From a bacterium (GTDB lineage Bacteria > NPL-UPA2 > JAGMAN01), in contig JAGMAN010000022.1 in assembly GCA_023130215.1 (NCBI GenBank), positions 1 to 26,388 of the forward strand: a stretch of DNA of 26,388 bases, given 5' to 3'. A program made the translations under genes and the position numbers. Below the pieces are notes generated by a model. It saw nothing but the letters and a program-made list of their open reading frames with translations, made no database searches and was not told the DNA's origin. This document shows positions 7,145-9,496 of the stretch, one piece after another (the stretch's first letter is position 1; the number at the start of each line of letters is the position of its first letter).

Positions 7145-8404
7145 ATGCACGATTTTAAGTACGTAGAAGGCGAACTTTTCTGTGAAGAGATGCGGGTAGA
7201 GGAGATTGCTCCTAAAGTGGGTACTCCCTTCTACCTTTATAGCTCTAAGACGTTAGTGGACCATTATCGCAAATTAGATAAAGCCTTTTCTTCCCTCCCC
7301 CATCTTGTCTGCTATTCACTCAAGGCTAACTCAAATTTAGCTATGTGTAAGCTACTGGCTCAGGAGGGAGCGGGGGCGGATGTAGTCTCCAGCGGTGAGC
7401 TCTTCAAAGCATTGAAGGCCGGCATGCCAGCGCAGAGAATAGTCTTTGCCGGGGTGGGTAAGACAGAGGAGGAGATAGAGTATGCCCTCAAAGCACAGAT
7501 CCTCATGCTTAATGTAGAGTCAGTCCCGGAACTGGATTTGATAAATGAGGTGGCTGGGCGTCTGGGCAAGAAGGCTCAGGTCTCCTTACGGGTTAATCCA
7601 GACGTGGATCCCCAGACCCATGCTTATGTTGCTACTGGAAGGAAGGAAAATAAATTTGGCTTAAGTATGGAAGTAGCCCGAGAGCTGTTTGAACGAAGAG
7701 CTGAGTTTACGCACCTGAAAATGGTCGGAGTTCATGCTCACATTGGCTCTCAGATTACCAGCGTTCGACCTTATGTAGAGGCCCTTCAAAAAATAGTTGT
7801 TTTCATTAAGGATTTAGAGCGAGGGGGTATTAAATTAGAGTATCTAAATGTAGGAGGGGGAATGGGGATTGTGTATGAGACGGAGATTCCCTCAACGGCA
7901 GAGGAGTTTGCCCGGGCTCTCCTTCCACTCATTAAACAGGTGCAGGCAAAAGTCATCCTCGAGCCTGGAAGATTTATCGTTGGGAATGCTGGAATCCTGG
8001 TGACCAGGGTGCTCTATGTCAAGAAGACTGCGGTTAAAACCTTTGTTATCGTTGATGCCGGTATGAACGATTTGATTCGGCCCAGTCTTTATGGGACTTA
8101 CCATGAAATCAGACCAACATCGGGCAGGAAAGGGACTATGCCCGAGTCAGATAAAAAGCTAATAGTTGCGGATATAGTCGGTCCCATATGTGAATCAGGA
8201 GACTTTTTTGCCAGGGATAGAGAGATTCCCGAAGTAGAAGGTGGTCAGCTTTTAGCTATCTTCGGAGCCGGTGCTTATGGTTTCTCTATGTCCTCTAACT
8301 ACAACTGCCGTCCCCGCCCGCCTGAGGTATTGGTGAAAGGAGATAAGTTCCAGGTTATTAGAGAAAGAGAAAAATATGAGGATTTGATCAGAGGAGAAGT
8401 ATAG
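7145..8404 (+). CDS. lysA: Diaminopimelate decarboxylase
   Basis: Fold-III PLP enzyme converting meso-diaminopimelate to lysine, 419 residues. PLP lysine K60 lies in CYSLKANSN, a variant of the usual Y-A-V-K-A-N. Other signatures: VHAHIGSQI (HIGSQ at 200-204), LNVGGGMGI near 235-243, EPGR at 274-277, CESGD at 350-354 with the active-site cysteine, and GAYGFSMSSNYNCRPRP with the substrate tyrosine. It begins on the base after the argG stop, using AAAGGA upstream, so it is tied to the arginine operon rather than to dapF, from which it is separated by a 252-base repeat-containing gap. Confidence 0.96.
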   Translation: MHDFKYVEGELFCEEMRVEEIAPKVGTPFYLYSSKTLVDHYRKLDKAFSSLPHLVCYSLKANSNLAMCKLLAQEGAGADVVSSGELFKALKAGMPAQRIVFAGVGKTEEEIEYALKAQILMLNVESVPELDLINEVAGRLGKKAQVSLRVNPDVDPQTHAYVATGRKENKFGLSMEVARELFERRAEFTHLKMVGVHAHIGSQITSVRPYVEALQKIVVFIKDLERGGIKLEYLNVGGGMGIVYETEIPSTAEEFARALLPLIKQVQAKVILEPGRFIVGNAGILVTRVLYVKKTAVKTFVIVDAGMNDLIRPSLYGTYHEIRPTSGRKGTMPESDKKLIVADIVGPICESGDFFARDREIPEVEGGQLLAIFGAGAYGFSMSSNYNCRPRPPEVLVKGDKFQVIREREKYEDLIRGEV

Positions 8405-8425
8405 GAGCAAGGCATTTTCTTGCTC
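8405..8425 (+). terminator. Hairpin immediately after lysA
   Basis: A perfect 7-base stem, GAGCAAG (8405-8411) with CTTGCTC (8419-8425), around a GCATTTT loop, starts on the base after the lysA stop. There is no T-tract downstream, so it is not a textbook intrinsic terminator; it could protect the 3' end or mark the edge of the repeat-rich spacer. Confidence 0.45.
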
Positions 8426-8456
8426 TCTGGCGGTTGCTCGCTGCTCCGCTTTGGTC

Positions 8457-8545
8457 GAAAAGGGACAGAAATTAAACTCCCCCCTCTTCTTGCTTTCGCA
8501 AGAAAGCAGAGGGGGTCAGACAAAATTTCTGCTTTAACCCTTTTC
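8457..8545. repeat. 89-base nested palindromic element (REP/MITE-like)
   Basis: Four nested inverted repeats share one centre. GAAAAGGG 8457-8464 pairs with CCCTTTTC 8538-8545. CAGAAATT 8466-8473 pairs with AATTTCTG 8524-8531. CCCCCTCT 8480-8487 pairs with AGAGGGGG 8508-8515. TCTTGC 8488-8493 pairs with GCAAGA 8498-8503 around a TTTC loop. All four stems are perfect, and unpaired bases between stems are short (1-8). The element lies in the lysA-dapF spacer and encodes no credible protein. The shape suggests a dispersed extragenic palindrome or a small non-autonomous element; terminal duplications were not seen. The rest of the gap (8546-8656) shows only a TGCTC/GAGCA mini-hairpin near 8596-8610. 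Confidence 0.75.
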
Positions 8546-8656
8546 TTCCTCAGCTACGCGGACGCTGCGCTACCAATGTTCGCTCGAAAACACCTTGCTC
8601 CTGATGAGCAGAAAAAATCCGCTCACGGCTAATGCCGAAACTTAGTATAGTTGAGT

Positions 8657-9496
8657 ATGAGAAAAATTAAATTTGTTAAGATGTGTGCTGGAGGGAATGA
8701 TTTTATCATAATAGATAACTGTGATAACATTCTCCCTGAGGATAGAAGTGCATTGGCTAAGGAGGTCTGTCGGCGAAAGTTTTCTGTTGGGGCAGATGGT
8801 CTTCTTCTGTTAGAGAGTTCCTCCCAGGCTGATTTTAAAATGCGCATCTTCAATCCGGATGGAAGCGAACCGGAGATGTGTGGGAACGGAGCCAGGTGTA
8901 TAGCCCGCTTTGCTTATCTGAGAGGAATAGCTGGGAAGAAGATGAGCTTTGAGACCCGGGCTGGCCGGATGGGGGCGGAAATAATTGATGAAAGAGTGAA
9001 ACTTGGGATGGGTGAGCCGACCGATATGGGGTTGAATTTAGAGATTTCATTAAAAAAGGGTATAAGGGGATCCAGTAATAAACTTTACAAACTGCACAAA
9101 ATAAATACCGGCGTTCCTCACGCTGTCTCTTTTGTTGATAATTTGGAAGAAGTTGAGGTTAAAGGCTTAGGAAGCCAGATTCGCTACCATCCCCACTTTC
9201 AACCCGAGGGGACGAATGCTGATTTCGTGCAGGTGGTGGATGGCCAGACTATCAAGATGAGGACTTACGAAAGGGGCGTGGAAGATGAGACTCGCTCTTG
9301 CGGCACGGGAGCAGTAGCCTCGGCCGTCGTTGCTTTCTCCTTAAAAAAGGTAGCAGAAATCCCTCTAAGGGTGGAAACCCGGGGAGGGGAAGTATTAAAG
9401 GTATATTTTAATTCAAAAGGGCAGAAAATGGCAGATGTCTACTTAGAGGGCGAAGCAAGAATCATTTATGAGGGGGAGCTAAAATGGAAAGATTGA
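8657..9496 (+). CDS. dapF: Diaminopimelate epimerase
   Basis: Cofactor-independent epimerase turning LL- into meso-diaminopimelate, 279 residues. The two catalytic cysteines are visible: C75 in MCGNGARC and C215 in SCGTGAVAS. The N-terminal motif reads KMCAGGNDFIIID, departing from the more common KMHGLGNDF, and FNPDGSEPEMCGNG, TGVPHAV and EGTNADF match the family. ATG 8657 was chosen over the in-frame TTG 8651. There is no clear Shine-Dalgarno; TATAGT sits five bases before the ATG. It overlaps dapA by 13 bases. Confidence 0.94.
   Translation: MRKIKFVKMCAGGNDFIIIDNCDNILPEDRSALAKEVCRRKFSVGADGLLLLESSSQADFKMRIFNPDGSEPEMCGNGARCIARFAYLRGIAGKKMSFETRAGRMGAEIIDERVKLGMGEPTDMGLNLEISLKKGIRGSSNKLYKLHKINTGVPHAVSFVDNLEEVEVKGLGSQIRYHPHFQPEGTNADFVQVVDGQTIKMRTYERGVEDETRSCGTGAVASAVVAFSLKKVAEIPLRVETRGGEVLKVYFNSKGQKMADVYLEGEARIIYEGELKWKD

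Follow-up and report, generated by a model that had tools for sequence, protein, structure and literature searches.

A probable ERIC/MITE-like dispersed palindromic DNA element in candidate division NPL-UPA2

In this study, we examined the spacer between lysA and dapF in a 26,388-nucleotide stretch of DNA (the window; contig JAGMAN010000022.1) from a genome of candidate division NPL-UPA2. This genome (G000; 1.01 Mb in 136 contigs, about 90% complete) and the other NPL-UPA2 genomes compared are draft metagenome bins. The two genes are encoded on the same strand, and the spacer holds a long imperfect hairpin followed by a separate short repeat (Table 1). The element and its closing stem, P1, begin within the TAG stop codon of lysA (8402-8404). 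Stretches resembling the short repeat are also present in the spacers of L217 and L219 in the same genome and in the rplN-rplX spacer of G002, a genome of the same genus.

Table 1. Features of the lysA-dapF region, in window coordinates
Feature	Position	Strand	Remarks
lysA, diaminopimelate decarboxylase	7145-8404	+	ORF; Pfam Orn_Arg_deC_N / Orn_DAP_Arg_deC
Whole dispersed element, single long imperfect hairpin	8403-8602	+	From fold, outermost pairing and copy comparison
Closing stem P1, 5' arm AGGAGCAAGG	8403-8412	+	Complementary to 8593-8602
Core stem 1, 5' arm GAAAAGGG	8457-8464	+	Pairs with 8538-8545
Core stem 2, 5' arm CAGAAATT	8466-8473	+	Nearly invariant phylum-wide
AAACTC, 5' side of internal loop	8474-8479	+	Conserved, mostly unpaired; nearly invariant columns
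Apical hairpin (stems 3 and 4, GCAA loop)	8480-8515	+	Copy-variable
Core stem 3, arms CCCCCTCT / AGAGGGGG	8480-8487 / 8508-8515	+
Core stem 4, arms GCTTTC / GAAAGC, GCAA loop	8492-8497 / 8502-8507	+
TCAGACA, 3' side of internal loop	8516-8522	+	Conserved, mostly unpaired; nearly invariant columns
Core stem 2, 3' arm AATTTCTG	8524-8531	+
Core stem 1, 3' arm CCCTTTTC	8538-8545	+
Closing stem P1, 3' arm CCTTGCTCCT	8593-8602	+	10-bp stem with 8403-8412
Separate short repeat CAGAAAAAATCCGCTCACGGCTAATGCCGAAACTT	8609-8643	+	Between element and dapF
dapF, diaminopimelate epimerase	8657-9496	+	ORF, Pfam; ATG at 8657 (ORF list: TTG at 8651)

The initial annotation of this DNA had described an 89-base structure of four nested perfect stems (8, 8, 8 and 6 bp) at 8457-8545, and these stems are indeed present, though not around the single shared centre that it had assigned to them, as their centres are spread between 8497.5 and 8501. 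The folding that it had proposed as a check gave a minimum free energy of -36.9 kcal/mol for this segment against a mean of -19.5 for shuffled sequences (z -5.9), and none of 200 shuffles was as stable. However, the 89 bases are the inner core and not the whole of the element, which measures about 200 nt (8403-8602): the segment 8402-8605 forms a single imperfect hairpin with an energy of -85.4 kcal/mol (z -6.8), a stability reached by none of 300 shuffles. The approximate ends of the element were derived from the outermost pairing together with a comparison to copies L149, L156, L154, L148, L159 and L152. A simple scan of the + strand revealed no promoter at the element and no intrinsic terminator (a G+C-rich hairpin with a T run after it) between 8300 and 8750. 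No Rfam family reaches its gathering score for the element.

It had also been suggested that the hairpin might be a dispersed element, and the whole genome was searched for copies. At the DNA level, the window's own genome contains one full copy and three more copies of the central hairpin, while among 40 relatives whole copies were found in one genome of the same genus and one of the same order, with matches to the core in other families of NPL-UPA2. With a covariance model of the core, 15 full copies were recognized in six of nine NPL-UPA2 genomes (1-5 per genome), 10 of these 15 being the sequences from which the model was built. There are in addition at least seven partial copies (L033, L034, L185, L187, L188, one in L226 and one in L229), in part obtained by a DNA search with the consensus of the copies of family f5 and, for two more, by BLAST of sampled contigs. 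The copies range in length from 166 to 213 nt and have in common a core, CAGAAATTAAACTC ... TCAGACAAAATTTCTG, which lies inside a single long hairpin. Core stem 1 reads AAAAGGG/CCCTTTT in the window copy as against GTCGGG/CCCGAC in family f5. Copies in which the stems have changed and yet still pair are spread over the phylum, which runs against the single-copy status without stem conservation in relatives that had been named as a refutation, and the description as a dispersed element holds. No element was detected in viral contigs, plasmids or phages at the settings used. A scan of the contig collection with an 18-base pattern returned 101 stretches, and those judged to have the remaining core all come from NPL-UPA2 genomes; the pattern was exact, so that more divergent relatives elsewhere would escape it. 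As far as found by such sequence searches, the element thus appears to be confined to candidate division NPL-UPA2.

Comparison of equivalent gene junctions indicates that the element is an insert, since the same gene pairs abut or overlap without it. The genes rplN and rplX overlap (TAATG) at the empty site of G000 and are separated by a copy in G001, and dnaK and dnaJ overlap (ATGA) at the empty site of G008 and flank a copy in G006. In G003, G004, G006 and G008, lysA and dapF touch or overlap and the element is absent, while G001 and G002 have other DNA upstream of dapF. We infer movement from the occupation of different sites in different genomes; no within-species polymorphic insertion was seen. 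Flanks belonging to the same copy were no more alike than swapped flanks in a test for target-site duplication (p 0.33), in which the boundaries of the element were inexact; taken singly, a direct duplication at G008:C9 (GGAGATAG) and one at the G001 rplN-rplX site were suggestive. The terminal arms might also have come from the empty site, but neither of the two pairs of filled and empty sites compared showed this.

Most copies lie between operon genes, for example at dnaK-dnaJ, fusA-yebC, rplN-rplX and ilvC-leuA, and according to Pfam the flanking genes have unrelated housekeeping functions (EFG_C/YebC, HSP70/DnaJ, DnaJ/Methyltrans_RNA, RRF/Prenyltransf, KARI/HMGL-like, PDT/Aminotran_1_2, DMRL_synthase/NusB and Phage_integrase/PolyA_pol). 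That some of the host junctions belong to amino-acid operons (lysA-dapF, ilvC-leuA, pheA-aminotransferase) might point to control of amino-acid biosynthesis by a cis-regulatory RNA or an attenuator. However, other copies are found at fusA-yebC, dnaK-dnaJ, frr-uppS, rplN-rplX and ribH-nusB, the four relatives named above lack the element at lysA-dapF, and neither a + strand terminator nor an Rfam match was found, so that this reading, already disfavoured, is extremely improbable. The proposal that a structured RNA separates the lysA block from the dapF block is not supported as a locus-specific function, as the other full copies lie at other junctions and in four relatives the two genes touch or overlap.

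All 22 copies examined for orientation (15 full and 7 partial) run parallel to the callable flanking gene or genes; for G003:C45 and G006:C65 the upstream gene alone was called, and for the G001 copy the sense orientation of the upstream rplN was read from the DNA. In most copies P1 starts near the upstream stop codon, often overlapping it, and ends before the next start codon, while some copies are 8-17 nt away from the stop codon. As 273 of 299 neighbouring gene pairs in our sample (91%) are co-directional, a position between co-directional genes is unremarkable in itself, and it is the fixed orientation that is notable; in contrast, of the 95 spacer-to-spacer repeat pairs in that sample, 22 match with opposite orientations. 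The strand with positive GC skew carries about 89% of the sampled genes, although skew and coding bias are confounded here, and 0.89^22 is about 0.08. With so many genes on one skew-defined strand, a strand-bound route of insertion could yield the observed orientation, which could equally stem from selection within operons.

The terminal arms differ among copies and are nevertheless complementary within each copy. In family f5 (nine copies, including one deletion derivative), arms paired with their own partner had a mean duplex energy of -20.3 kcal/mol compared with -8.9 kcal/mol for swapped partners (permutation p 4e-5), and the outer portion of the arms alone gave -8.2 and -3.7, respectively (p 6e-5). 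In the f1/f2 copies (n=7) the difference was smaller, with -18.4 and -14.3 kcal/mol (p 0.005); the ends of these copies are partly conserved (GGAGCAAGG), whereas those of f5 are copy-specific. In consensus folds, the closing stem and the apical hairpin hold most of the two-sided changes; for these alignments the copies were cut by hand at the outermost pairing, so that the pair counts lean towards the fold, whereas the swap test was anchored on conserved inner sequence. Diverged copies with covarying stems, which had been named as support for a mobile or regulatory element, were found, with pairing kept within copies in two subfamilies.

Conservation of pairing in a sense-oriented element could mean that the folded RNA is under selection. 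In such a model, a mobile element lies in sense with a stop codon on one side and a ribosome-binding site on the other, and its closing stem either brings these two signals together, which preserves translational coupling, or serves as a target for RNase cleavage, with the result that sense, well-closed copies alone survive. The uniform orientation, the span of P1 in most copies, the copy-specific complementarity of the ends and the strong RNA fold are all in agreement with it, and for ERIC elements orientation has been described to matter for mRNA stability (PMC2229807). However, selection for pairing at the RNA level predicts an excess of G-U pairs, and G-U cells (22) are no commoner than A-C cells (29; p 0.40), which gives no support for such selection; moreover, the copies set back from the stop codon fit poorly, and the orientation may also follow from the strand bias of the genes. 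We consider this explanation unlikely. The G-U/A-C result is compatible with upkeep of the palindrome at the DNA level, for example by template switching between its arms, a process described in PMC8604942.

A second alternative is suggested by the palindromic, intergenic and dispersed character of the element, namely that it is of the REP/REPIN type and is mobilized by a RAYT (Y1) transposase. REP sequences are likewise extragenic palindromes, often located at stop codons, and their ends can provide stop codons (PMC3733652); furthermore, Y1 transposase genes (PF01797) are present in five of nine NPL-UPA2 genomes. However, the distribution of these genes and that of the element are unrelated: in G004 there are six Y1 matches without any element, while G000, G002 and G008 carry the element and have no Y1 match, so that the search for an IS200-like REP-associated transposase that the initial annotation had called for was negative in the window's own, roughly 90% complete genome. 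The element was not found beside any of the eight Y1 loci examined in relatives, there is no Y1 gene beside the copies, and no mobilizing enzyme was identified. Nor does the element have the fixed GTAG/CGTC tetranucleotide head, the bases at its 5' end being GTAG, ATAG, GTAA, TGA and others; it is at least about five times longer than a REP (about 200 nt as against 20-40 nt), and it reaches only 1-5 full copies per genome. The earlier suggestion of a REP is therefore not borne out, and mobilization by a RAYT is very unlikely. The sequences GGGGTCAGAC and GGGACAGAAATT were also tried as REP-like heads, and a search of the window's own genome yielded no abundant family.

The other half of that suggestion, the MITEs, fares better in part. 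As in RUP and NEMIS/Correia, we are dealing with a small, non-autonomous, dispersed insert with inverted terminal sequences; however, a fixed terminal inverted repeat common to copies across the phylum is lacking, no target duplication was detected at the approximate boundaries, and no parent transposon was found. Integron attC sites resemble the element in being imperfect palindromes with variable parts that lie beside stop codons. They have conserved ends and a variable middle, the reverse of what is seen in NPL-UPA2, where moreover the flanking genes are of the housekeeping kind. Closest in kind, as judged from its published description rather than its sequence, would be ERIC (or IRU), which is described in PMC2229807 as an enterobacterial, dispersed, imperfect palindrome of 127 bp in transcribed intergenic regions, for which the enzyme of mobility is unknown. 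The element shares the long imperfect palindrome, the dispersal and the transcribed intergenic location, but belongs to a different phylum, is 166-213 nt long and has copy-specific ends, a variable apical hairpin and all its copies in sense.

Taken together, these comparisons lead us to favour, with some confidence, the view that this is a new ERIC/MITE-like element, a dispersed DNA palindrome that is non-autonomous and, as far as found, restricted to NPL-UPA2. Its mobile form is probably a DNA hairpin exposed on one of the strands, and its mobility would be supplied by an enzyme acting in trans. A single-stranded route on the lagging strand would give a fixed orientation, because the genes lie overwhelmingly on one strand, and the arms may be kept complementary by template switching between the inverted repeats, by recognition of the folded form, or by both. 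An insertion that falls after a stop codon and ahead of the next ribosome-binding site would be tolerated because both genes remain intact. By analogy with ERIC, effects on the processing or stability of host mRNA are possible and would be secondary. A more specific version, in which an element without fixed ends has inverted terminal arms peculiar to each copy, inserts into operons exclusively in sense at the stop/start junction and, by holding stop and start together with its closing stem, keeps downstream translation going, seems to us quite unlikely; if true, it would describe a selfish element adapted to silence within operons. An ERIC/MITE-like element of this kind would add a family of dispersed palindromes to a phylum known mainly from metagenomes. 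For a MITE it is unusual to have ends that are specific to each copy yet complementary, together with placement in sense throughout, and the element provides a test case in which selection on the RNA, replication-coupled insertion and the correction of palindromes by template switching can be told apart.

Several other repeats were noticed in the spacers of these genomes. In the same genus, a second dispersed small hairpin, CCCC-TTCT-TGCTTTC-GCAA-GAAAGCA-GGGG, resembles the apical hairpin seen in the window copy; it is present at L004, L037, L002, L030, L032, L035, L036, L027 and L003. At L004 and L037 it is placed immediately between a stop codon and the ribosome-binding site that follows, and at L003, L027, L030 and L036 one called flanking gene is opposite to it in direction. 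L032 and L035 are long composite spacers of several hairpins, common to G002 contigs. Just upstream of the small hairpin in L003, near the contig end, the region around 1440-1510 looks by eye like an FMN riboswitch and has no Rfam match at the gathering score. Other families of spacer repeats are represented by L224, L225, L226, L228, L230 and L231, with some pairs in opposite orientation.
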